DNA of 43,207 nt, taken from IMG/VR virus record IMGVR_UViG_3300018083_000055, positions 1-43,207 of that record, one strand, 5' to 3'. The notes beneath the pieces are model-generated. The model saw only the letters and a program-made list of their open reading frames with translations. It made no database searches and had not been told where the DNA came from. The position numbers and the translations under genes are program-made. Of the stretch, positions 4,169 through 43,207 are shown piece by piece (the stretch's first letter is position 1; each line of letters starts with the position of its first letter). Source of the stretch: a virus.

Positions 4169-4597
4169 TTATACGAGTGTTCCAAATCCACCTGTAAAGT
4201 CAATAGTCAGACTTTCGCCATTCTGAAGCGTTAAGTCTGAAGTGTAATCATACCAACCAATTAAAGGATCAGCCGGAGAAGTAGGATCGTCGTTATACAA
4301 AAGAACATAACGAAAAGCCGCCACCGCTCCACCTGAAGCCGTTAATACTAAATCATTCGCTGTGAACGTTACCGTTCCACTTGCTTGCTCTGCTGTGATT
4401 CCTGTTATCACCCTGCTGGATAAATTCGTGTAAGAGATTTGTGTTACATCTGCTAACACGGCATCAGCCGAAGCAGAAGGGGCATTAGCCGCACTACACA
4501 GAGCCACAGTCACCGTACAAGTAGCATCACTTGTAAAGTTGTGAACACCCTTTGATAAATCTTCAACGAACTGGTCGAATTTGTTAAACGTAGCCAT
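4169..4597 (-). CDS. Virion structural protein, 142 aa
   Basis: The protein begins MATFNKFDQFVEDLSKGVHN and continues with Ala/Thr-rich beta strands. 'FRYVLLYNDDPTSPADPLIGWYDYTSDLTLQNGESLTIDF' is a pattern common to small phage structural proteins of the 'K.n.f..fvedla.gvhnl.sdt..' type. It is the first structural gene after the sugar-modification cassette, and its ATG overlaps the stop of the GT4 gene as TAATG. The exact virion position is unknown. Confidence 0.6.
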   Translation of the reverse strand: MATFNKFDQFVEDLSKGVHNFTSDATCTVTVALCSAANAPSASADAVLADVTQISYTNLSSRVITGITAEQASGTVTFTANDLVLTASGGAVAAFRYVLLYNDDPTSPADPLIGWYDYTSDLTLQNGESLTIDFTGGFGTLV

Positions 4598-5625
4598 TAT
4601 ACATAATTTTTAAGTTTGACAGATTGTGTTTCATATAAAAAATTCTCGAATCGTTTACAATATTCTAAAGGGTCATGTTCCTTAGCCCTTATCCTTGAAA
4701 CATTACTCCTTTCTTTATAAAAACTCTTATCATCGAATTTCTTAATCATGTTCACTAAAGAAGTAATATCATACTGATCTGTATCGTCTAAAACATTTCC
4801 GTTATCGTCGAATAAATCACCCTTTCTTAAATCAATATAATTACCTGCATAATCACAGTTCTCTTTTAATCCAGGAGTAGGAGTACATATAACCGGAATA
4901 CCAGAACACATTGCCTCAGTCGCTGTCATTCCCCAGCTCTCGTATTGAGAAGGCATTATTAAAAGCCTTGTTTGTTTATAAATAGGAAGAATGTCAGGAG
5001 TGTTATCAATTACAAAAACGTTTTCCGGTTGTTCTGTTATTTGTTTGTCGTAACTCCCTTTAACCGCTAAGAATCTTTTATCAGGAAATACCTTTGCTAA
5101 CTTCTGTAAGATCCTTCCACCCTTATTAGTGTTTAAATTTATCAAAGTAATAAACTCGTTCTTTTCGGGATCATCACAAACGTTGTACCTGTCATAATCA
5201 ACCGCAGGAGGAACAACTATTGAAGGATATTTATAGTTAAGCGTTTTAGAAATCCATTCTGAATTATAAACTATAAAAGGCGGATTCTTTGCGTTAATTA
5301 TCGAAGCATATTCATGATGATTGTGGACGATCTGAACAACTGGCCGTCCTACATCATGCCCTAGCGTTAATGTCCAATGAGTAAAATCTAAATGAGTAAC
5401 TAAAACGTCGGCCCAACGGTAAGCGTCTAGGTTATCCCTTAATCCCATTACATAAACACCTTCCCAATCATAAGGAACCCTGTAATGAAACTGTTCAGGA
5501 CGTTGTAACATTACTCTAACCTCGTGACCTTGTTTAATTAGGTACTTATTTAAATTGTGTATATATGCTTCCCCTCCACAATTATGGATAGGGGGATAAA
5601 GATGTATAGAATATAAAATTCTCAT
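4597..5625 (-). CDS. GT-B glycosyltransferase, family GT4-like
   Basis: This protein of 342 residues transfers a sugar from an activated donor. The N-terminal Rossmann half begins MRILYSIHLYPP and has the 'GGEAYIHNLNKYLIKQGHEV' glycine-rich acceptor-side motif. The C-terminal half carries the E-x7-E nucleotide-sugar signature (E229 and E237, 'ESWGMTATEAMCSGIPVI'), typical of retaining GT4 enzymes. I chose the ATG at 5625, not an upstream one at 5637, because it forms an ATGA overlap with the fucosyltransferase-like gene and gives the family-typical N-terminus. It is the last gene of the cassette. Donor and acceptor cannot be read from sequence. Confidence 0.85.
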   Translation of the reverse strand: MRILYSIHLYPPIHNCGGEAYIHNLNKYLIKQGHEVRVMLQRPEQFHYRVPYDWEGVYVMGLRDNLDAYRWADVLVTHLDFTHWTLTLGHDVGRPVVQIVHNHHEYASIINAKNPPFIVYNSEWISKTLNYKYPSIVVPPAVDYDRYNVCDDPEKNEFITLINLNTNKGGRILQKLAKVFPDKRFLAVKGSYDKQITEQPENVFVIDNTPDILPIYKQTRLLIMPSQYESWGMTATEAMCSGIPVICTPTPGLKENCDYAGNYIDLRKGDLFDDNGNVLDDTDQYDITSLVNMIKKFDDKSFYKERSNVSRIRAKEHDPLEYCKRFENFLYETQSVKLKNYV

Positions 5626-6410
5626 ATTACAATCCAATCTTTTTGATAACCGTCATTCCAATTCATGTCTCCTGCTTGTGTACCAAACCATCTTTTAGGC
5701 GCAATAACTTTCTTTTCAGGATGTTCAGCAATCGTTGCAGCAAAAGCGGAAAAAGTAGAATTAGAAATAATAAAATTCTTACAAGCCTTCATACTTCTGA
5801 AATCGTCTAAATATGTTTCGTCACCCCTGCTAATTCTAAATGTATAATGATTGCCAGCATCATTTAATTTTTTATAAAATTCATCAATATCATCACTATA
5901 AGCAATAAACACCGTATCCTTCGGCATCATAGACATTGCTTTCATATAATATTCTATTGGCAATCTTGGATGATAAGCGTCCGGGTCATCTATATAATCG
6001 CCGGCCCTGTAATGAACCGCACATAAATTATTAAGCACAGGATCATGGTTTAATTCATCCTTCATCTTAAAGTAATGCCTTACCTTATCTAAACAATGTT
6101 CAAAGTATTTAGGACTTTGCAGGTGTGCGTTAATTGACCAATGTCCACTATTTAAAATGATTTCTTTATACCCCCAGAAATATCCAAGCTCTTGAAATTG
6201 TTCACCGTTTACTCTTGGTAGTGGATTCTCAAAGTACTGCTCAAAATCCGTTACCTCACCGCCGAATAAAGCGTTATCATAATTCCTCCAATGCGGGAAA
6301 GCAAAAGGCTGTCCTGACTTTTCAGCAATACCAATGATACTGGCTATTGTGTAACATTGATTACCGAAACGGCCCAAACCTCCTGTCCCTATTGAAGTAC
6401 TCGTTAACAT
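5622..6410 (-). CDS. GT11-like alpha-1,2-fucosyltransferase
   Basis: The 262-residue protein shows the conserved motifs of family GT11. The N-terminal 'GGLGRFGNQ' spans residues 10-18. The nucleotide-binding H-x-R-x-G-D motif is 'HYRAGDY' at about 133-139. 'SNSTFSAFAA' at about 216-225 matches the family 'SnSSFSwWaa', followed by a 'WFG' near the C-terminus. Known members transfer fucose from GDP-fucose to the 2-position of a galactose-type residue. I see no GDP-fucose synthesis genes, so the donor would come from the host. Coupled to its neighbours on both sides. Confidence 0.85.
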   Translation of the reverse strand: MLTSTSIGTGGLGRFGNQCYTIASIIGIAEKSGQPFAFPHWRNYDNALFGGEVTDFEQYFENPLPRVNGEQFQELGYFWGYKEIILNSGHWSINAHLQSPKYFEHCLDKVRHYFKMKDELNHDPVLNNLCAVHYRAGDYIDDPDAYHPRLPIEYYMKAMSMMPKDTVFIAYSDDIDEFYKKLNDAGNHYTFRISRGDETYLDDFRSMKACKNFIISNSTFSAFAATIAEHPEKKVIAPKRWFGTQAGDMNWNDGYQKDWIVI

Positions 6411-6961
6411 TCAACTAACCATTTTTTATCAAACAACTTCATAGAATCACCTAAAACCTCAGGGAATAATTTATCATATTTTACATCAACAAAAACCATA
6501 TTTCCAGTATGAGCTAAAAGCATATAACCCTTACTCCAACCTAGTTCTAACATAGTCCTAAAACTTGCTCCCCGATTAGGATGGAAAAATTCTAACTCTG
6601 GATCTAAAGAACTATTGATCTCAATAATCACTACCGCCGGTTTCCCTTCATAAGCCTTCCAAACCATATAATCGTTTCCGTCAATGTCAATACTTAAAAT
6701 ATCACACTTAGGCAAATCATTTACGTTGCTTTCGTTGACTTCCATTTGCGCAACTCCCGTTCCTGTTGGAACTAAATCATAAAGGTTCCTGGTAAACTGA
6801 AACTCATTACACAAATCAGCCGTATTTGAACAAAAGAACCCATCGGCCCCGCCGAACTCAACACAATGACCTTCTTTTAATCCGATTCGCTTAATGATTT
6901 CTTTAAGCAGGCCAAATTCACCGTTCTGACTATATAAACCGTTATCTAAATACTTATTCAT
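6404..6961 (-). CDS. FkbM-like SAM-dependent methyltransferase
   Basis: This 185-residue protein has a SAM-binding motif I 'CVEFGGADGFFCSNT' (about residues 33-47) and the acidic motif 'CDILSIDIDGNDYMVWK' (about 86-102). That motif resembles the 'lsiDIDGnDyw' block of FkbM-like methyltransferases carried in polysaccharide loci. FkbM enzymes usually O-methylate sugars. Its ATG overlaps the stop of the 71-residue gene as ATGA, and its 3' end overlaps the GT11 gene. Substrate unknown; a glycan is inferred from context. Confidence 0.75.
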   Translation of the reverse strand: MNKYLDNGLYSQNGEFGLLKEIIKRIGLKEGHCVEFGGADGFFCSNTADLCNEFQFTRNLYDLVPTGTGVAQMEVNESNVNDLPKCDILSIDIDGNDYMVWKAYEGKPAVVIIEINSSLDPELEFFHPNRGASFRTMLELGWSKGYMLLAHTGNMVFVDVKYDKLFPEVLGDSMKLFDKKWLVEC

Positions 6962-7173
6962 TCTTTGTTGTATTGTGTGCTATCAAACTCTACACCTGCG
7001 GAAAACTTACTCCCCTCTTCCCAGTACAATGTTTCAAACTGTTTAAAAAGATCAATTCGCTCCTCTCTGGATAGTTTACCTATTTGAGATAGTATGCTTT
7101 TAACATTGGAAACTTTTATAAGTTCATCCTTTGTTAATTCGTCAAGCTCTTTTAATTCTTTTTCTTTTTTCAT
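6958..7173 (-). CDS. Small charged 71-residue protein in glycosylation cassette
   Basis: A short helical, highly charged protein: MKKEKELKELDELTKDELIK, then 'ILSQIGKLSREERIDLFKQFETLYWEEG'. I recognise no domain. It lies between two methyltransferase genes in the same operon and is coupled to the downstream one by ATGA. It may be a small partner of one of the enzymes, which is inference only. Confidence 0.6.
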   Translation of the reverse strand: MKKEKELKELDELTKDELIKVSNVKSILSQIGKLSREERIDLFKQFETLYWEEGSKFSAGVEFDSTQYNKE

Positions 7174-7183
7174 AGTTATATAT

Positions 7184-7711
7184 TTAGGTTATTAATGTCC
7201 AGTTTTCCCAAACGAAGGGAGTTTGCCATGTTAATTTATGGGTCTTCGATAGTTCGGATTCAATATCCACATAAAGTAGTTCATAACCCGGTACTATATG
7301 AAACTGCACCTGAATATTTTTAATATTACTTATTAACCCCTGTTTTAAAATATAATCAAGCAAAGAATATTCACCCCCTTCAATATTAATCTTCATTACC
7401 GCCACTTCTCTATTCAAATACCTCGCTATATCTTCACACTTTACTTTTCGCCTTTCTTCCTTCGTAAATATTGAACTATATAAAAACACTCCCCCGATTT
7501 CCATTTCTCCATCGTACAACCATGCTGCCCGATCATCTAAAGCCTCAAAACATTCAACTTCGCAACCGTACCTTTTTTTAATCTCATTAGCCCACTCTCC
7601 CCGATAACTTCCAATATCAATACAATAGTCACCCGGTTTAAGGTCGTACTCATACCTTAGCTTCTCTAACCCTTTTTCAATCCATTCTTTTTGATCTCCA
7701 ATACTTACCAT
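7184..7711 (-). CDS. FkbM-family methyltransferase
   Basis: This 175-residue protein has motif I 'DYCIDIGSYRGEW' (about 28-40), an acidic post-I strand 'CEVECFEALDD' and the FkbM signature 'MKINIEGGEYSLLDYIL'. In the family the 'kiDiEGaE' acid binds near SAM. It is close to the short end of the FkbM range. FkbM enzymes O-methylate sugars and other hydroxyls. The start at 7711 overlaps the upstream class I methyltransferase gene by 7 nt. Confidence 0.8.
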   Translation of the reverse strand: MVSIGDQKEWIEKGLEKLRYEYDLKPGDYCIDIGSYRGEWANEIKKRYGCEVECFEALDDRAAWLYDGEMEIGGVFLYSSIFTKEERRKVKCEDIARYLNREVAVMKINIEGGEYSLLDYILKQGLISNIKNIQVQFHIVPGYELLYVDIESELSKTHKLTWQTPFVWENWTLIT

Positions 7712-8250
7712 AAAATTGCAATTGTATCTCTGTAATTAGGATCGAAATCATAAAACTTAAACTCCTTACACATTTCTCTCGTAATTTCTAAGTCGTTATA
7801 ATACCAACCATCAACAAATCCAAAATCTTCTTTATGTTTTAAACAGTCATTTCTTAACCAATTCGCAAAACTTATCAGAGCCTTACCCCTTAACACCCTT
7901 TTTATTTCTTTCAAATAACTTCTTTGACCCTCTAAAGGAAGATGACAAAAAACACCAAAGGAATAAACCACATCGAAACTCTTATCTTCAAACGGTAAAG
8001 TATATCCATCCGTCTTTATATACTTCGCTTTTAATCCTTCCGGCTTCTCAATTCTATCTATACAAACAACTTCGTCAAACTTAGGTACAAGTAATTTATT
8101 CGTCCAGTAACCATTTCCACAACCTATTTCTAAACATCTCCCACCGGGTAACATCTTAATCGCTTCCTGCAATGGGTCTAAAGAAATCGCTTTAAAGTCC
8201 TCCTGATAACCTTCAGGCCAATAGTTTTCTATTAAATTACCACTCTCCAT
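7705..8250 (-). CDS. Class I SAM-dependent methyltransferase
   Basis: With the start at 8250 this protein has 181 residues. It carries motif I 'CLEIGCGNGYW' (about 39-49), a post-I acid 'VVCIDRIE', the motif IV-like 'FDVVYSFGVFCHLPLEGQRSYLKEIKRVLR' and a C-terminal 'RDTIAILW' strand, all typical of the Methyltransf_11/25 group. I preferred ATG 8250 to an ATG at 8304. It has an A/G-rich GAAGAAGAA just upstream, gives only a 14-nt overlap with the upstream gene, and the preceding residues look unrelated. Target unknown; small molecules and sugars are common for this group. Confidence 0.8.
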   Translation of the reverse strand: MESGNLIENYWPEGYQEDFKAISLDPLQEAIKMLPGGRCLEIGCGNGYWTNKLLVPKFDEVVCIDRIEKPEGLKAKYIKTDGYTLPFEDKSFDVVYSFGVFCHLPLEGQRSYLKEIKRVLRGKALISFANWLRNDCLKHKEDFGFVDGWYYNDLEITREMCKEFKFYDFDPNYRDTIAILW

Positions 8251-8959
8251 TTCTTCTTCTATGATGATCGAACATTGCCGGGTAAGTCGCTCCGCCTTTA
8301 TCAATGTGTTCTGAATAAAGAGTAGGCCACCAATGCAATTTCATCCCGTATTTAATTTGCAGACAACATAATATTGCCTGATCGTGTCTGTGTTCTGCAA
8401 ATGTTGGATAATTCCTTTCCATCGGTGAATCATCTATGAACCCTGGTATTTGACACCATGATAACCATTCAGCCATAAATCGTCTTGTGAAATCAGTAAC
8501 CTTCATAAATATTACACTTGCTTGAACCTGTTTAAAATCCTCTAAGTGCTGAATCTGCCCATCATTTGGTATTTTAATTCCTGTTATAGTTTCAAACACC
8601 TTACCCTTACACCATTCAATTTGCTTAAACCCGTTAGTAAAAAGAAATATATCCTGATCCATTTTCTCAATTATGTGTTTAACTTCTTCGACAAACGAAA
8701 CGCCCGCATCACTATATATTAAAATATCACCATCGTTCATTTCCAGTAAAGCCTTATTCACAACATAGCTTTTCCAAATCCAATACCCAGCACCTCTTTC
8801 TTGCATCAAAACTTCTTTATTCACCCCGAAGAAAAAAGGATCAATATCTTTCACCGAATAAGAAAACGTTTTTTCAACTCCATTCCTCAAAGAACTAACT
8901 ATTAAATTCTCCTGTGAGATCGTCATATTATCCGAAGCGTAACAAACTAAAGCAATCAT
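8237..8959 (-). CDS. GT-A-like glycosyltransferase of capsule/LPS type
   Basis: This 240-residue protein has 'RGAGYWIWK' (residues 55-63) followed by 'DGDILIYSDAG' (76-86), then 'HRHDQAIL' (190-197). This set is seen in a family of nucleotide-diphospho-sugar transferases from capsule and glycan loci, in which the Asp-rich strand holds the metal and donor. It overlaps the genes on both sides. Sugar specificity is unknown. Confidence 0.7.
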   Translation of the reverse strand: MIALVCYASDNMTISQENLIVSSLRNGVEKTFSYSVKDIDPFFFGVNKEVLMQERGAGYWIWKSYVVNKALLEMNDGDILIYSDAGVSFVEEVKHIIEKMDQDIFLFTNGFKQIEWCKGKVFETITGIKIPNDGQIQHLEDFKQVQASVIFMKVTDFTRRFMAEWLSWCQIPGFIDDSPMERNYPTFAEHRHDQAILCCLQIKYGMKLHWWPTLYSEHIDKGGATYPAMFDHHRRRNGEW

Positions 8960-12745: not shown

Positions 12746-12857
12746 TGAAATAGTTTTGTCTTAACCAGTTTCTTTTATCCCTTTCATGCCGGCAACTTTT
12801 TTCCTCGTCCGTTATCGGGTATCGCTCCCTGACCATTCGTTCTATTTCCTTGTCCAT
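12672..12857 (-). CDS. Possible overprinted 61-residue gene at portal/gp7 boundary
   Basis: A frame that overlaps the last 74 bases of the portal gene and the first 74 of the gp7-like gene encodes a strongly charged 61-residue peptide (MDKEIERMVRERYPITDEEK and on). It spans the 38-nt gap between them and looks protein-like. The portal end in the other frame is low-complexity Asn/Gly/Gln. It may be a real overprinted gene, or a shadow. Confidence 0.3.
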   Translation of the reverse strand: MDKEIERMVRERYPITDEEKSCRHERDKRNWLRQNYFNELEQKKNSKGVEGDKLEIRNEVV

Positions 12858-14268
12858 TTGGATTATTTAGTATCTCGTCAACCATTGAAACCTCTTCAAT
12901 TGGGACTTTGTTACTATCTATAAAAATTTTATCCATTTCATCTATAACAATTTCTTCAAATCCTATTTCATCTCTAAATTCATTTAGTGTTATCGGAGCG
13001 TCTTTATAAGCTGCTATCTTATCAACTAAGTCCTCCTGCATCTCTGGTAGTTCTGAATAGTCAGGAATTATCTTTACTCCTTTAACGCCGAAAGCAGGAA
13101 GTAACATTCTGTTCATTTCTTCATTGAAAGATTCACAGTCTGGTATAGTTAATTCGCTTACTAATCTTTTCCTGTTGCTCCTTTGGTTCTCGTAGGTCTG
13201 ATCTATTAAGAACAAACCCGGAGGCACACCAAACACATGACACAGCTTCGCAAAGGCTTTATCGTTACCGTCTAACAATTGCATATCAACCGAATCCTTC
13301 CCTATGTCCAAATAACCCCAATCACCCTGAAGATTAGCTATTGAGCTTTTAAGGTCAAGATTATTTATTCTCTTAGCTGTTATCTCTTCAAGTTTGGCTT
13401 TTTGTTCTACCGAGATATTCTTTAACGACTTCTCAAATAAGACACCCCTTGCGCCCCCATGCTGATACATTGCTACCGCTGCATTGGTAGAATCTTCCTC
13501 CATTGTGAGGGCTTTAAGCCCCGGTTTAAGCGGTGACAATCCTCTCAAATGTATTCTGGTAGTAGCGTCAAACTTTAAACCCGGCTTTCTCCAAAACAGT
13601 ACATCGTTTTTCCTGACAAATACCTGCGCCCCGTTAATCTGTAAAGTGTAACCCAAAATTCCCCAAACATCCTCTGGATCTGGAACAATCGTTACTAAGT
13701 GAGCGGGCATCCAATACATTTCTAAAACAGGCTCTTTATCTGCTTGTTCGTCTGTCATGCCATCAATATCACCCCTATTCAACCAAGTAAACGATTCGCC
13801 ACAGATACAATAAGAGATGTAAGTAATGAAGTAAAACATATCCTGCCCGGCCTGTGGATTCGGTCTTTGTAGTAAACTTGATAGACCTTCAACTCCGTTC
13901 AAAGTACCTGTCTTACCTGAGGCTATTTTATAACCGATTCGTTTTGCTTTTAACGCTTTTTGCCAGCTTCCTTTCCTGATTAAAGATTTATATTTTCCTG
14001 CCTCTTCGCTATCTTCTACTTCTAAAACTTCCCTTGTTATTTGGGAGAATTTACGAGCTGGTAAATTAACTATCGAATAAACAGCCCCGTTATTCTCATA
14101 AGCATTTACAAAAGTCTCTGTCTCTGCTGAAGGATAAACAGGCATCGAACCCAGTTGGATCATTCTCATTGACCTTAATTCCTGCATATTCAAAGAGCTT
14201 TCATAACGCTTGTCTATACGAGCTATAAAATTCCCAAGCGTGCCTATAATGTTTCCTATTAAACTCAT
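12784..14268 (-). CDS. Portal protein, HK97 family
   Basis: The 494-residue protein matches the HK97-type portal layout: 'NGAVYSIVNLPARKFSQI' near residue 55, 'MFYFITYISYCICGESFTWLNRG' in the middle, 'RGLSPLKPGLKALTMEEDSTNAAVAMYQHGG' and 'LCHVFGVPPGLFLIDQTYENQRSNRKRLVSELTIPDCESFNEEMNRMLL' in the clip/stem region. It forms the dodecameric DNA channel at one head vertex. The C-terminus (NPNGQGNRTNGQG) is low complexity. It lies two bases from the terminase stop. Confidence 0.9.
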   Translation of the reverse strand: MSLIGNIIGTLGNFIARIDKRYESSLNMQELRSMRMIQLGSMPVYPSAETETFVNAYENNGAVYSIVNLPARKFSQITREVLEVEDSEEAGKYKSLIRKGSWQKALKAKRIGYKIASGKTGTLNGVEGLSSLLQRPNPQAGQDMFYFITYISYCICGESFTWLNRGDIDGMTDEQADKEPVLEMYWMPAHLVTIVPDPEDVWGILGYTLQINGAQVFVRKNDVLFWRKPGLKFDATTRIHLRGLSPLKPGLKALTMEEDSTNAAVAMYQHGGARGVLFEKSLKNISVEQKAKLEEITAKRINNLDLKSSIANLQGDWGYLDIGKDSVDMQLLDGNDKAFAKLCHVFGVPPGLFLIDQTYENQRSNRKRLVSELTIPDCESFNEEMNRMLLPAFGVKGVKIIPDYSELPEMQEDLVDKIAAYKDAPITLNEFRDEIGFEEIVIDEMDKIFIDSNKVPIEEVSMVDEILNNPNGQGNRTNGQGAIPDNGRGKKLPA

Positions 14269-14270
14269 AA

Positions 14271-15479
14271 TTAAAATGCTACCCAGCTCATTCTATCTAC
14301 TGCCAACTTCGTGAAAATTGCATATCTCATTGCATCCATGCTGTGATCTAAAAACTTAACCGGCTCATCCCTGTCCTTATCTTTCACCACTTTCCCGTTA
14401 ACATCTGTTTTCCACTTGTAACCCTTTATCTCTTTTAAAATATTCGTCGATTGCTCTGTGATAAAAAGCGGATAAGATTTTACTTTCCTTATTCCCTCGG
14501 TAACGTCCTTATCTGCCTCCCATGCGTTAAATCCTGCCCTTTTAAGCTCCTCAATCGTCTTTGGTTCTGCATTATCACAATAAATTTCTATCGTCCTGCT
14601 TACCCCTATATCTTTAAATCGTTCAACTAAATCATTTGTGGTTAGTCTTGTTTCATACAAAAGCTCTTTAACGTAAATCTTTTCCTCATATAATTCGCAA
14701 AGAACTAAAGCCGAAGGAACGTTGTAACCAAAATCACACCCCATAAAAATCTCACCCTTTAACGGTAATTCTGGTACTGTTCTCCAATGGTTATAAATCA
14801 ACTCTGTTGACTTACCTCTCAATCCTAATCCGAAAACATTCCAAAGGTTCTGATCTGCTAACTTTAATTTCTCAATTTCATGCCTTTGGTCTGCCGGAAG
14901 AAACGGATTGTTCCTAAATGTGGAATGAATCATCAGGTTGGGTTTAATATCCCTTCCCTGTTCATCCTTGCCCCCTGGATAATCCACCACATCATAAACC
15001 CAGTTCATTTCATCCACCGGGTTAAAGTCTATAAAAATCACTTCTTTGGTTCTTAATGATAACTGCGTATAAACAGAATTAGGAATTAGGTTTGCCTCGT
15101 TTATAAACAGAATATCCCGGCCCGGCCCCCTGACTTTACCAACATCTTCAACCCCGAAAAACTCAACATAAGATCCGTTCGGATAGTAATATATCTGATC
15201 CGTCTTATTGTGGTTCTCATCAGAGTAAATCCCGGCGTTTTCAAGTATCTCAAAGAAGTCCCGCATTGCACCTCTTTTTAAGTGAGGAAGCGAAGGCGAA
15301 ACGATTGAAATTGACTTTTTAAAATTGTACGGTATGTAAAGAGCTAATAATTGACTAAGTGAATATGTTTTTGTGCTTCTACTGGATCCTTGATTTCCGA
15401 TAACCCTGTACTTTTTCGATTCATACGCTTCAAGGTTCCACTCATATACGTCAGTAACTAAAACTTCATTTTGTTTCAA
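14271..15479 (-). CDS. terL: Terminase large subunit
   Basis: This 402-residue protein has a Walker A-type loop 'GNQGSSRSTKT' (28-38), a Walker B 'DILFINEAN' (about 122-130), the coupling stretch 'FRNNPFLP', and an RNase-H-like nuclease with 'FMGCDFGYNVPSAL' (about 247-260), 'IYCDNAEPKTI' and 'FLDHSMDAMRYAIF'. This is the PBSX/Terminase_3 type. It drives DNA into the prohead and cuts it. Such terminases often package by headful, in line with the apparent circular permutation. Its ATG overlaps the small-subunit gene by 14 nt. Confidence 0.92.
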   Translation of the reverse strand: MKQNEVLVTDVYEWNLEAYESKKYRVIGNQGSSRSTKTYSLSQLLALYIPYNFKKSISIVSPSLPHLKRGAMRDFFEILENAGIYSDENHNKTDQIYYYPNGSYVEFFGVEDVGKVRGPGRDILFINEANLIPNSVYTQLSLRTKEVIFIDFNPVDEMNWVYDVVDYPGGKDEQGRDIKPNLMIHSTFRNNPFLPADQRHEIEKLKLADQNLWNVFGLGLRGKSTELIYNHWRTVPELPLKGEIFMGCDFGYNVPSALVLCELYEEKIYVKELLYETRLTTNDLVERFKDIGVSRTIEIYCDNAEPKTIEELKRAGFNAWEADKDVTEGIRKVKSYPLFITEQSTNILKEIKGYKWKTDVNGKVVKDKDRDEPVKFLDHSMDAMRYAIFTKLAVDRMSWVAF

Positions 15480-15906
15480 TTGAATCTACTTTTTTCATAA
15501 TGACCTGAACACCGCCGTCAACCTTTAAATCCTGCTCGGTTTTATCTTTCCATGTCATGTTCTTTAAAGCGAATATTACACCCGTTGGATTGCTATCATA
15601 AATCAACCTGCCTTCATAAATAGACTCAACCTTTTCCCTTGCCTTTTTTATAATGTCCGAAAACTGTTCTTTGTCATCATATAAATAAAGTGTTGAACGA
15701 CTGATACCCAACTCATAAGCAAGCCCGGCAAGTGTTGGCCTATCTTCGGAATCAAAATAGTTTTCGATAGCCGTTTTCAATTCTTCTGCTGACTGATATG
15801 CTAAAGGTCTGCCCATAGGTATATAAATGACAATGCCCCTGCTTAGTGCAGAGGCGTAATAATTAGCTTTTCGGATACCCGGTTGCTCAATATTTTCATT
15901 TGCCAA
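15466..15906 (-). CDS. terS: Terminase small subunit
   Basis: The core of this 146-residue protein is MGRPLAYQSAEELKTAIENY, then 'RPTLAGLAYELGISRSTLYLYDDKEQFSDIIKKAREKVESIYE', a helix-turn-helix pattern shared by small terminases of this type, then 'NPTGVIFALKNMTWKDKTEQD', also typical. It recognises the packaging start site. Starts at 15906 and at the internal 'MGRP' ATG (15816) are both possible; homologs often begin at MGRP. It is the first gene of the late block, just after the parS-like site and the early terminator. Confidence 0.85.
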   Translation of the reverse strand: MANENIEQPGIRKANYYASALSRGIVIYIPMGRPLAYQSAEELKTAIENYFDSEDRPTLAGLAYELGISRSTLYLYDDKEQFSDIIKKAREKVESIYEGRLIYDSNPTGVIFALKNMTWKDKTEQDLKVDGGVQVIMKKVDSIETK

Positions 15907-15952: not shown

Positions 15953-15968
15953 AGTTCCACGTGAAACA
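15953..15968. promoter_or_regulatory. parS-like centromere site
   Basis: AGTTCCACGTGAAACA matches 15 of 16 bases of the bacterial chromosomal parS consensus TGTTnCACGTGAAACA; only the first base differs. It is the sole CACGTG with these flanks in the window and lies in the noncoding gap between the terminase small-subunit start and the terminator at 15992-16023. No ParA or ParB gene was recognised here, so binding by host ParB is inferred. A phage transcription factor with the same palindrome is the alternative. Confidence 0.6.
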
Positions 15969-15991: not shown

Positions 15992-16023
15992 TAAAAAGCC
16001 CGAATGTAGAAACACCCGGACTT
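15992..16023 (-). terminator. Intrinsic terminator of the minus-strand early block
   Basis: Read on the minus strand, AGTCCGGGTG - TTTCTA - CATTCGGGCT forms a 10-bp stem with three G-U pairs and a six-base loop, followed by TTTTT. It lies just after the last early gene and before the terminase genes, so it separates early and late transcription. The G-TTTCTA-C apex recurs in two other hairpins (20682-20703 and 29063-29080). Confidence 0.75.
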
Positions 16024-16040
16024 ACCATTAAACCTATATC

Positions 16041-16163
16041 CTATGAGAGTTTTCTTTTGCCGCATTTTATACAGTAAACTTCGTTTCCTTTTGTCATTGA
16101 ATATTTATACCAGCGATAACGATGAAAACAAAATAAACCCTTTATAAATTTAATCAGTTTCAT
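16041..16163 (-). CDS. 40-residue zinc-ribbon-like protein (DUF1660-like)
   Basis: The frame reads MKLIKFIKGLFCFHRYRWYK, then 'EVYCIKCGKRKLS'. The Cys-Phe-His...Trp-Tyr...Cys-x2-Cys-Gly-Lys layout matches small prophage zinc-binding proteins of the DUF1660 type. Its ATG overlaps the stop of the preceding gene as ATGA. It is the last gene before the terminator. Function unknown. Confidence 0.6.
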   Translation of the reverse strand: MKLIKFIKGLFCFHRYRWYKYSMTKGNEVYCIKCGKRKLS

Positions 16164-18442: not shown

Positions 18443-18994
18443 CTACAAGTTTTCCACATTTAAAAACATATCGAAAGGATCAAGTCTATAAATATTCACT
18501 TTTCTTTTTGATGTTTGCTTCCATGTATTAGTATGACTAATCCCATTTCTATCACCGGCTTTAATCCATCCCATACATTGCCAAAATAAGTTACTTGGTA
18601 AATCGTCTGCACAACCGCAAGACCATCTATGTGTACCAACAGAAGCTCCGTATCTTGTAACGCTATCTAAAAGCAATCTACCCCTATCCATTAACCTGGC
18701 ATCAACCTGAAGGCATATTTGTGCTATCTTACCCAACTTTCCTATTATCGTCCTAACCCCGAATGATGCTAAACAGAAACCAACCAAATCCCCATTGCAC
18801 TCAATAATAAAAAGTTTATCATTACATTTTTCACTCCATCTATCACCTTTTTTAATTCCCGTTATTGCTGATTCATAAGCCATCTTTGGTATAAACCCGA
18901 TTGATTGAGATTCTTTTTGGCTTAAACTAAGAATGTATTTTATATCATTCAAATTAGCAAACCTAACTACCCCTAAGTCTATTGCGTTAATCAT
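18443..18994 (-). CDS. GNAT-fold acetyltransferase-like protein
   Basis: This 183-residue protein has 'DLVGFCLASFG' (beta4), 'KIAQICLQVDARLMDRGRLLLDSV' (acetyl-CoA loop and helix region) and 'CGCADDLPSNLFWQCMGW'. The last is the 'N.fw...GF' GNAT signature. It resembles a phage-specific GNAT group with unknown targets. The GNAT fold also includes the Mu Mom DNA-modifying enzyme, so a nucleic-acid target is possible. It follows the PAPS-reductase-like gene in the same operon. Confidence 0.65.
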   Translation of the reverse strand: MINAIDLGVVRFANLNDIKYILSLSQKESQSIGFIPKMAYESAITGIKKGDRWSEKCNDKLFIIECNGDLVGFCLASFGVRTIIGKLGKIAQICLQVDARLMDRGRLLLDSVTRYGASVGTHRWSCGCADDLPSNLFWQCMGWIKAGDRNGISHTNTWKQTSKRKVNIYRLDPFDMFLNVENL

Positions 18995-19056: not shown

Positions 19057-19791
19057 TTAAGGCGTACATGCACAATCAAAAGCCGGGCTTATTTCTTCTA
19101 AATCATAATCCTTAAAAAGATTATTCCTGGCTATGTTTCTCAATTGCCTTATTGTCGTTCCTTCAAAATAAGTATGCCCAAGTTTCTTTTTACCTTCCAT
19201 TCGTTCTTTACTCATATCCTCATCAGCAATCCACTTATCTGCAAGTTCTGGATATTTAGCCATAATAGCCATAAGAGCGTTCTTCCCTTTCATAAAACAC
19301 AAGTCACAGTTGCCAAGTATCGAAGGTATTTCTAATTTATAAGGCTTATGTTTCCAAAATTCATTTACCATTTGTTTATCAATGCCATCATTGTATAAAG
19401 GGAAAACGTCCGTAACCTTTTTCCACATTTGTTTTCTCTTCTTTACTCTATCTTGTTCATCTGATCTGAAGCCAACAAAATTTTCATAAACCCTGATTTT
19501 TTTACTTACTAAATACCTTCTTGCTGTTTTAATCTTTAATTCAATTGTGCATTTCCTTTTCCATTGGTTGGGAATCATCATTTGCTTTTTTAAAACACCT
19601 TCAAACCCAAATGGGTGAGAAAGACGAACAATAGGAATATTTTCAAAAGCCTCAAAGTCGTTTATAAATTTATAGGTTTTAGGATGTTCACGTCCTGTAT
19701 CGCAGAACAGGACAATATCACCTGGTTGATAATATTTAATAACCATATACCCGGAAGTCTTGCCCCCGCTAAAGTTAATTACTCTTTGCAT
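19057..19791 (-). CDS. PAPS reductase-like PP-loop ATPase family protein
   Basis: This 244-residue protein has the N-terminal PP-loop 'NFSGGKTSGYM' (SGGKTS at 8-13), then 'LFCDTGREHPKTY' (29-40), both typical of PAPS reductase/DndC-like proteins. Cysteines C81, C162-x2-C165 and C240/C242 could hold an Fe-S cluster. Phage members have been discussed for sulfur or DNA modification, but function is not established here. The downstream neighbour is a GNAT protein. Start ATG 19791. Confidence 0.75.
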   Translation of the reverse strand: MQRVINFSGGKTSGYMVIKYYQPGDIVLFCDTGREHPKTYKFINDFEAFENIPIVRLSHPFGFEGVLKKQMMIPNQWKRKCTIELKIKTARRYLVSKKIRVYENFVGFRSDEQDRVKKRKQMWKKVTDVFPLYNDGIDKQMVNEFWKHKPYKLEIPSILGNCDLCFMKGKNALMAIMAKYPELADKWIADEDMSKERMEGKKKLGHTYFEGTTIRQLRNIARNNLFKDYDLEEISPAFDCACTP

Positions 19792-19850
19792 TTATCTTTT
19801 TTCCATTTTTCCTGTAATAAAGATGCTGTAAAACGTCTAACATATTCATA
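19779..19850 (-). pseudogene. Possible C-terminal remnant of a small gene
   Basis: In a different frame from the HNH gene, 'NYEYVRRFTASLLQEKWKKD' and four more residues run to a TAA at 19779. The stretch looks protein-like but has no convincing ATG start (only a weak GTG upstream). It could be the 3' end of a small gene whose 5' part was displaced when the adjacent HNH homing endonuclease gene inserted. A 24-codon ATGA-coupled frame also overlaps it. Confidence 0.25.
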
Positions 19851-20316
19851 GTTTATTAAGATTAGCAAACTCACCATGTAGGGTTTTGGCGATATTATTA
19901 TATGCGAGTGCAGCCTCTATTTCAGTATCGTAATAACCTATGTATCTACAAACCTTATCCTTGCATATTTGCGCCCGCCACCTATTACAATGCTTCGCCC
20001 ACGAAACACCTTTATATTTAGATGTTGTATTCTTATTAGAAGATGTGTTAATGTTGTTTTGCGCTTTAGTACACAGACGCAAATTATTACGTTGGTTATT
20101 TAATCCGTCTCCATCAATGTGATCAATTGTAATATCTTTATCATTTACACCCATTAAAAACCTGTGCAGATAAGTAAATTTATTATTTATTGCTGCTGAA
20201 GCGTAAAAGGAGTTACCACACTTATGAAGATACCATTTATGGTTAAAAACCAAATCATAATCGGCATCGTCTATTAATGTAATAATACCCTTTCGTGTAA
20301 GTTTTATTCCAATCAT
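19846..20316 (-). CDS. HNH homing endonuclease with AP2 DNA-binding domain
   Basis: This 156-residue protein has an HNH nuclease core with 'YLHRFLMG' (about 49-56), 'DHIDGDGLNNQRNNLRLCT' (65-83) and an AP2-like DNA-binding domain at the C-terminus ('KYKGVSWAKHCNRWRAQI', then 'YIGYYDTEIEAALAYNNIAKTLHGEFANLN'). HNH-AP2 proteins are usually free-standing homing endonucleases that copy themselves into intron- or gene-free sites. It splits a lipoprotein gene from the PAPS-reductase-like gene. Its ATG overlaps the lipoprotein stop (ATGA). Confidence 0.85.
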   Translation of the reverse strand: MIGIKLTRKGIITLIDDADYDLVFNHKWYLHKCGNSFYASAAINNKFTYLHRFLMGVNDKDITIDHIDGDGLNNQRNNLRLCTKAQNNINTSSNKNTTSKYKGVSWAKHCNRWRAQICKDKVCRYIGYYDTEIEAALAYNNIAKTLHGEFANLNKL

Positions 20317-42212: not shown

Positions 42213-42656
42213 TTAAATTGTTTGTGTTATTAAATGTTCCCATCGAACTATTTTTTGATAATATTTATATTGCCCGTCATCCTCTGTTAGATAACTTTCT
42301 GACTGAGGACTGACACATAAAAACTGAAACCCTGAAGCATCTGTTAATCCATCGTTATTAGCAGAAGTGATTACTAATTCCTTAATCTGCTCGTCTATGC
42401 TTTCTACTATGTCATCTTTGATCCCTGTTTGACCCGAAAACCTTGCTGTAATATGTGTTATAATAATCGGTCTGGTAAAATGTGCATCTGCTGTGCTTTC
42501 GTTTGTCGAACTCTCCGCCCTGATAACTACATAAAAAGTACCCGGATTGCCGTCTGCGTCCTCACGAAATACTTTAACCTGATTTCCTGAAATGGTTATC
42601 TGCCCATCAAGTTTAGTAAACCAAGCAGTCTTTAATCTTCCAATCGGGTTCTTCAT
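42213..42656 (-). CDS. Tail completion/minor virion protein, 147 aa
   Basis: This basic-then-beta protein starts MKNPIGRLKTAWFTKLDGQI. It has 'FYVVIRAESSTNESTADAHFTRPIIITHITARFSGQTG', 'DIVESIDEQIKELVITSAN' and a C-terminal 'YQKIVRWEHLITQTI'. The layout is close to DUF3168-like tail-completion proteins found between gp10-like and tube genes. Family assignment is by position and pattern; ATGA-coupled upstream. Confidence 0.6.
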   Translation of the reverse strand: MKNPIGRLKTAWFTKLDGQITISGNQVKVFREDADGNPGTFYVVIRAESSTNESTADAHFTRPIIITHITARFSGQTGIKDDIVESIDEQIKELVITSANNDGLTDASGFQFLCVSPQSESYLTEDDGQYKYYQKIVRWEHLITQTI

Positions 42657-43207
42657 AACAGTTGATCTATCTTTTGATTTATCCTTGCCATCATTTTAGG
42701 AATTACTATTCCTTGTTGCTTGAAAAAATACGGATGAGCCTTTACACCATTTTTTAAAATACTCATAATTATCGGCCATGCTGCTGCGTAATCTTCGGCA
42801 AGTTGATCTACTTTACTTCCTGCCCTTCGCCTTGATTTAATATTATACCTTCCCGCAATACCTTTCCTTTTTACCCAATTAACTATCGCTCTAACCATGT
42901 CCTTAAAAGTTCCCTCACCTTTCCCCCTGAACCTTGCCGCCACCGCTTCGGCCCCTGGTACTGGTCTATAATTTCCTTTTGTTCCAAATTCCATATAAGC
43001 GGCCGCAGCACTTTGAGAAAATATATCATAATCAGCCGATCCTAATCTTTTATAAGCAATGTGATTTTTTAAGAAAGCCTGATCAACCGGGGCATCTTGC
43101 TGCGCTCTTATTACAAACTCCCTGGCACCCTCCTCCATTTCAGCGTCCGCAATATCTTGCACGTGCGAAGGCAGCTCTTTAAAGAGTGTTTTTAAAGCCC
43201 CAAAGCC
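42653..43207 (-). CDS. HK97-gp10-like tail completion protein, cut by window end
   Basis: This frame has 'QDIADAEMEEGAREFVIRAQQDAPVDQAFLKNHIAYK' (helix, then the loop typical of gp10-like proteins), 'AAAYMEFGTKGNYRPVPGAEAVAARF' (the 'yvefGT' motif), and 'HPYFFKQQGIVIPKMMARI' near the C-terminus, all hallmarks of HK97 gp10-family proteins. An apparent GTG start at 43162 is internal: the frame is open to 43207 and continues in frame at position 1, where a GTG at 27 starts it. Confidence 0.8.
   Translation of the reverse strand, partial: GFGALKTLFKELPSHVQDIADAEMEEGAREFVIRAQQDAPVDQAFLKNHIAYKRLGSADYDIFSQSAAAAYMEFGTKGNYRPVPGAEAVAARFRGKGEGTFKDMVRAIVNWVKRKGIAGRYNIKSRRRAGSKVDQLAEDYAAAWPIIMSILKNGVKAHPYFFKQQGIVIPKMMARINQKIDQLL

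Follow-up and report, generated by a model that had tools for sequence, protein, structure and literature searches.

A Bacteroidota-type parS site in a tailed phage without a recognisable ParB, a probable target of the host protein

The window, that is, the whole stretch of viral DNA analysed here (43,207 nucleotides, IMG/VR record IMGVR_UViG_3300018083_000055), contains a parS-type site that, with a probability of about 0.7, is a functional parS of the host type, through which a phage without a recognisable ParB would use the ParB of its Bacteroidota host. This reading is founded on the exact identity of the site with chromosomal sequences, the excess of the same sequence in viral DNA, its placement in gaps between genes and near the terminase, the parS-like degeneracy of its copies, and the selection apparent in a different group of phages, here called the L422 family. 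Comparative evidence of this kind supports, indirectly and strongly, that the site is able to recruit host ParB.

Sequence and genomic setting of the site

The letters and the position of the 16-mer given in an earlier note on this DNA were confirmed on re-reading, and the record holds a single copy (Table 1). AGTTCCACGTGAAACA differs at one base from the B. subtilis-type TGTTNCACGTGAAACA and at two from TGTTTCACGTGAAACA, so that its description as one base off the consensus holds for the former sequence and not for the latter, while there is no mismatch to the Bacteroidota chromosomal sites. It also fits the 14-bp core of the host phylum, GTT(C/T)CACGTG(A/G)AAC. The number of matches expected by chance in the window was 0.0043 for up to one mismatch to TGTTNCACGTGAAACA, 0.0176 for two mismatches to TGTTTCACGTGAAACA and 0.0015 for the perfect GTTNCACGTGNAAC core, and second-order Markov shuffles of the window gave 0.003-0.007, in few-fold agreement with the other estimates. 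A chance match is indeed very unlikely, as had been claimed, with about 0.001-0.007 expected in the window. It should be noted that such a low expectation, taken alone, is suggestive only, since a reader could have picked many motifs.

Table 1. Features of the window around the parS-type site.
Feature	Position	Strand	Basis or remark
parS-type site AGTTCCACGTGAAACA	15953..15968	+	exact Bacteroidota chromosomal parS variant
14-bp core GTTCCACGTGAAAC, near-palindromic	15954-15967		inside the parS-type site
Intrinsic terminator, end of the leftward early genes	15996..16023	-	12-bp stem and T tract; MFE and centroid folds
Small ORF, final early-unit gene ahead of the terminator	16041..16163	-	read from the sequence; without family
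8-bp GC-rich hairpin just ahead of terS	15835..15855	-	different hairpin in the nearest relatives
Terminase small subunit terS, ATG 15816, gene 1 of the late unit	15466..15816	-	PHROG 606 E=8e-18; Pfam GP3_package E=3e-18
Terminase large subunit terL	14271..15479	-	PHROG 2 E=2e-36
Portal protein	12784..14268	-	PHROG 12 E=5e-28

The order early terminator, site, terS, terL bears out the placement between the early terminator and the terminase genes that had been described. The terminator lies 28 bp from the site, terL starts about 475 bp downstream of it, and the start codon of terS is backed by comparison with relatives. At the position of the hairpin ahead of terS, the nearest relatives, L002 and L003, carry a different one. 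No promoter of the Bacteroidota type (TTG-N17-22-TAnnTTTG) was found near the site, and sigma-70-like matches near it were no more numerous than expected by chance. Homologues of the ORFs near the two window ends (343-885 and 42653-43162) are no more than about 1 kb apart in the relative G261. For this reason, the record probably represents a near-complete, circularly permuted genome, with a late unit that seems to cross the left end and to resume at the right one (20-885, 42653-43207). The site would therefore mark the early/late junction of the genome.

As regards other genes, the early region contains a phosphoadenosine phosphosulfate reductase (19057-19791), an HNH-AP2 endonuclease (19846-20316) and a weak match to GNAT acetyltransferases (18443-18994). 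The late operon carries two glycosyltransferases and two methyltransferases (4597-8304), possibly involved in surface or virion modification.

No match to ParB_N (PF02195) was obtained in the whole record, and neither ParA nor an integrase appeared in Pfam and PHROG scans covering most of the window ORFs, all but a few small ones; the absence of these three functions reported from the first reading was thus upheld within that scope. Repressor, plasmid replication-initiator and lysogeny genes were not identified in the window either. A ParB of the phage's own was rejected at the PF02195 level, both for the window and for its relatives.

The site in Bacteroidota chromosomes

A search of host genomes for the exact variant had been proposed, and the identical 16-mer was found in Bacteroidota chromosomes, many members of this phylum being among the cellular matches listed. 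Among 118 Bacteroidota genomes sampled across the phylum, 108 contained the core GTTNCACGTGNAAC, usually in 1-3 copies, versus about 10 finds of a reversed control pattern over the same genomes; on this basis, the phage 16-mer is an exact chromosomal parS variant of Bacteroidota. In 12 genomes bearing the 16-mer, 1-3 copies of the core were present per 1.8-6.5 Mb, multiple copies lying within about 2 kb. The chromosomal cores were often located beside mnmG/gidA (recognised by sequence), a gene that sits near the chromosome origin in other bacteria. In addition, the best named relatives of the terminase belong to phages of Bacteroides, Parabacteroides and Flavobacterium, and the probable hosts of the window phage are likely Bacteroidota. 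No cellular contig encoding a relative of the window terminase, which would give a prophage or host context, was found.

Occurrence and placement in viral contigs

The exact 16-mer was present in at least 119 IMG/VR contigs (some near-identical, about 89 distinct), versus 2 for a reversed and 9 for a position-permuted control 16-mer. Low-order Markov expectations were similar in size for the 16-mer and for both controls; those of order 4-5 were set aside because the training loci had been picked by the motif. The 16-mer is thus over-represented in viral contigs at least 10- to 20-fold. For the canonical parS, too, the viral matches listed are a lower bound. The contigs carrying the 16-mer have widely different flanks and a GC content from 0.28 to 0.68, and among 50 of the larger records TerL was recognised in 26 and a ParB_N match in 8. 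Host contamination as the origin of the viral matches is made less probable by this frequency of TerL, and may hold for individual contigs. None of 7 cultured Bacteroidota phages had the site, nor did the stretches examined from 12 Pelagibacter phages. Some viral contigs bear arrays of 5-12 sites (L229, with 12 cores in 5 kb, and L159, L186 and L258, with 5 each) that resemble true centromeres.

Sites lay outside ORFs in 39 of 89 cases (11 expected) and in 65 of 125 (16 expected), a three- to four-fold excess, whereas for the control 16-mers this occurred in 1 of 10 (0.9 expected). Furthermore, in the 24 records with the site within 10 kb of TerL, it was found up to 3 kb upstream of this gene in 15, compared with 3.9 expected from length and 7.7 from intergenic length (against the latter, P=0.001, a somewhat optimistic value as a few of the records are related). 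None of these 15 records had a ParB_N match. The inner variable base was a pyrimidine in all 62 half-sites at non-seed sites, the same rule as in the hosts. Non-chance occurrence in phage DNA, placement in gaps and the pattern of variation of parS were in this way all observed.

Replicated phage genomes carrying parS could also act as a decoy that titrates host ParB and upsets segregation or division of the host. Such an effect would require no phage protein, and surplus copies of parS do disturb partition, probably through ParB titration (PMC10954446). However, several sites per genome would be expected, most carriers, the window phage included, show one in the stretches examined, and the preference for sequence upstream of the terminase would be left unexplained; we regard this explanation as very doubtful.

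Conservation within phage families

The L422 family was assembled from the TerL relatives of one carrier, gathered by protein, so that the motif played no part in their choice. A perfect core is kept 1.06-1.22 kb upstream of TerL in 17 of 21 members, these being the ones with TerL at least 84% identical (84-100%) and enough upstream sequence, and at 67-71% TerL identity it was present in 1 of 34. In an alignment of 13 non-redundant members, with 250 bp on each side of the core, 13 of the 14 core columns were invariant and the longest invariant run was GTTTCACGTG, versus a median identity of 0.57 in the flanks. The retention of the core amid diverging flanks, which the earlier note had proposed to look for in related phages, is therefore seen in a family unrelated to the window phage. 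No ParB_N was detected in 13 records of the wider family, and these results indicate that the core is under purifying selection in phages that are themselves without ParB_N. In a second carrier family, T7-like and with an integrase, all 3 loci had the core, which in one of them shows an exchange of the inner bases; two of the 3 loci also belonged to the motif-selected set.

These families are informative about another explanation, in which the phage would persist extrachromosomally and be segregated by host ParA and ParB through parS, as SGI1 does with the parABS of an IncC plasmid (PMC10954446). The lack of an integrase in the scanned ORFs of the window would agree with it, but no repressor, plasmid replication-initiator or lysogeny gene was identified there. 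In the L422 family, the site sits between divergent early and late units. The genes of this family include a DNA polymerase, a primase/helicase, a ribonucleotide reductase and a thymidylate synthase, and no integrase is among the gene families shown, so that the family that conserves the site looks virulent; the T7-like carriers, for their part, have an integrase. The partition or carrier-state purpose suggested in the earlier note is weakly supported, and we consider it unlikely.

Within the family of the window phage, the nearest relatives, L002 (a 46-kb contig) and L003, with 78% TerL identity, do not have the site. Longer relatives were collected through the capsid gene, and one of them, G261 (TerL 70%), presents, in a gap that separates late from early genes, the perfect core TGTTCCACGTGAAACG, directly preceded by a terminator-like hairpin. 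G262 carries the same core within a coding gene, in frame as SFHVEHG; it was set aside as evidence because it may be coding-driven. There were no near-identical phages by DNA in the phage collection, nor were relatives more than 90% identical to the window phage found. From these comparisons, the position of the site does not appear to be conserved among the relatives found in this family, and its recurrence at unit boundaries suggests turnover of the site, with two or three cases only. Absence from close relatives had been named as an outcome that would speak against the site; it does occur at 78% TerL identity, and the core reappears at 70%. This absence is not decisive, because the L422 family keeps the site at 84-100% TerL identity and is nearly always without it at 67-71%. 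G261 also has an ORF (L534 1-438, minus strand) in which Cys-rich units (NCSYCSYCSDC) are repeated in a long tandem array.

That the site is a chance palindrome resembling parS, idle in the window phage, would agree with its absence from the two nearest relatives, with its single copy, and with a P of about 0.004 that is not decisive alone, since many motifs were looked for. Against this stand the viral counts relative to the two controls, which leave room for few exact matches by chance, the correct phylum, gap and placement, and the core of G261. We judge coincidence quite improbable.

No ParB_N match above the cut-off was found in the window's family, and one relative, G260, gave a weak match below it (E=4e-4). 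This match would fit a palindrome serving as operator for an unrecognised phage regulator with parS-like specificity, as would the location at the early/late operon boundary and the majority of window phage genes left unassigned. However, the degeneracy of the host sites recurs in unrelated phages over the whole range of GC content mentioned above, and no common regulator is known for them; an operator seems the least probable of the explanations weighed here.

A possible role in infection

The ParB-parS pair ranks among the most conserved bacterial systems that organise DNA. For a host-type parS in the window phage, the following course can be proposed. Host ParB would load with CTP at the 14-bp core, close into a clamp and presumably slide onto the adjacent DNA, so that a nucleoprotein patch would form at the boundary of the early and late transcription units. 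Loading at parS with CTP and subsequent sliding as a clamp are described for ParB (PMC8367383, PMC12704722), and in P. aeruginosa more ParB leads to stronger repression of parS-adjacent promoters (PMC5521831). More tentatively, the patch might serve in the lytic cycle for local insulation or timing of transcription at the early/late boundary, or for the positioning and compaction of replicated genomes before packaging, through ParB and the host chromosome machinery. Early/late control or genome positioning appears likelier than plasmid partition.

In a wider sense, we find it somewhat probable that many tailed phages without ParB carry a selected host-type parS, often just upstream of the terminase, and use the host ParB clamp during lytic infection. 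If phages of this kind keep a host parS under selection, the segregation clamp of the host belongs to phage biology, and a short motif would give experimental access to packaging, to early/late control or to the positioning of phage genomes. For uncultured phages, it might further point to the phylum of the host.

Comparison with known systems

A full-text literature search, with most subscription papers and all preprints outside its scope, returned phage-encoded parABS systems and the parS mimicry of SGI1, but no phage without ParB was found described with a natural parS of the host type; provisionally, such a site would be new to the literature. The closest counterpart is the chromosomal ParABS system of Bacteroidota, with which the window shares the exact 16-mer, including the core and its permitted variation. 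The chromosomal parS lies near the origin, whereas the window site is at an early/late boundary of a phage, on an element where parA and parB were not recognised.

The phage-plasmids P1 and N15, mycobacteriophage RedRock and cyanophage Mic1 also present a centromere-like site. These phages encode ParA and ParB and have their own parS; the window, in contrast, gave no ParB_N match and no ParA in the scanned ORFs, and its site has the sequence of the host type. Engineered lambda phages with parS for imaging demonstrate that a phage-borne parS recruits ParB during infection, with an artificial site and a supplied fluorescent ParB, whereas the window site is natural (PMC13190303).

The "stolen" parS of SGI1 offers a parallel, this mobile element bearing mimics of parS to which the ParB of another replicon binds (PMC10954446). 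For the window site, such binding is presumed. The window gave no ParB_N match and its site is identical to the parS of Bacteroidota, the likely host phylum, which would fit a case of this type. SGI1 hijacks the ParB of a helper plasmid and integrates, whereas the window belongs to a tailed phage whose presumed partner is the chromosomal ParB of the host (PMC10954446).
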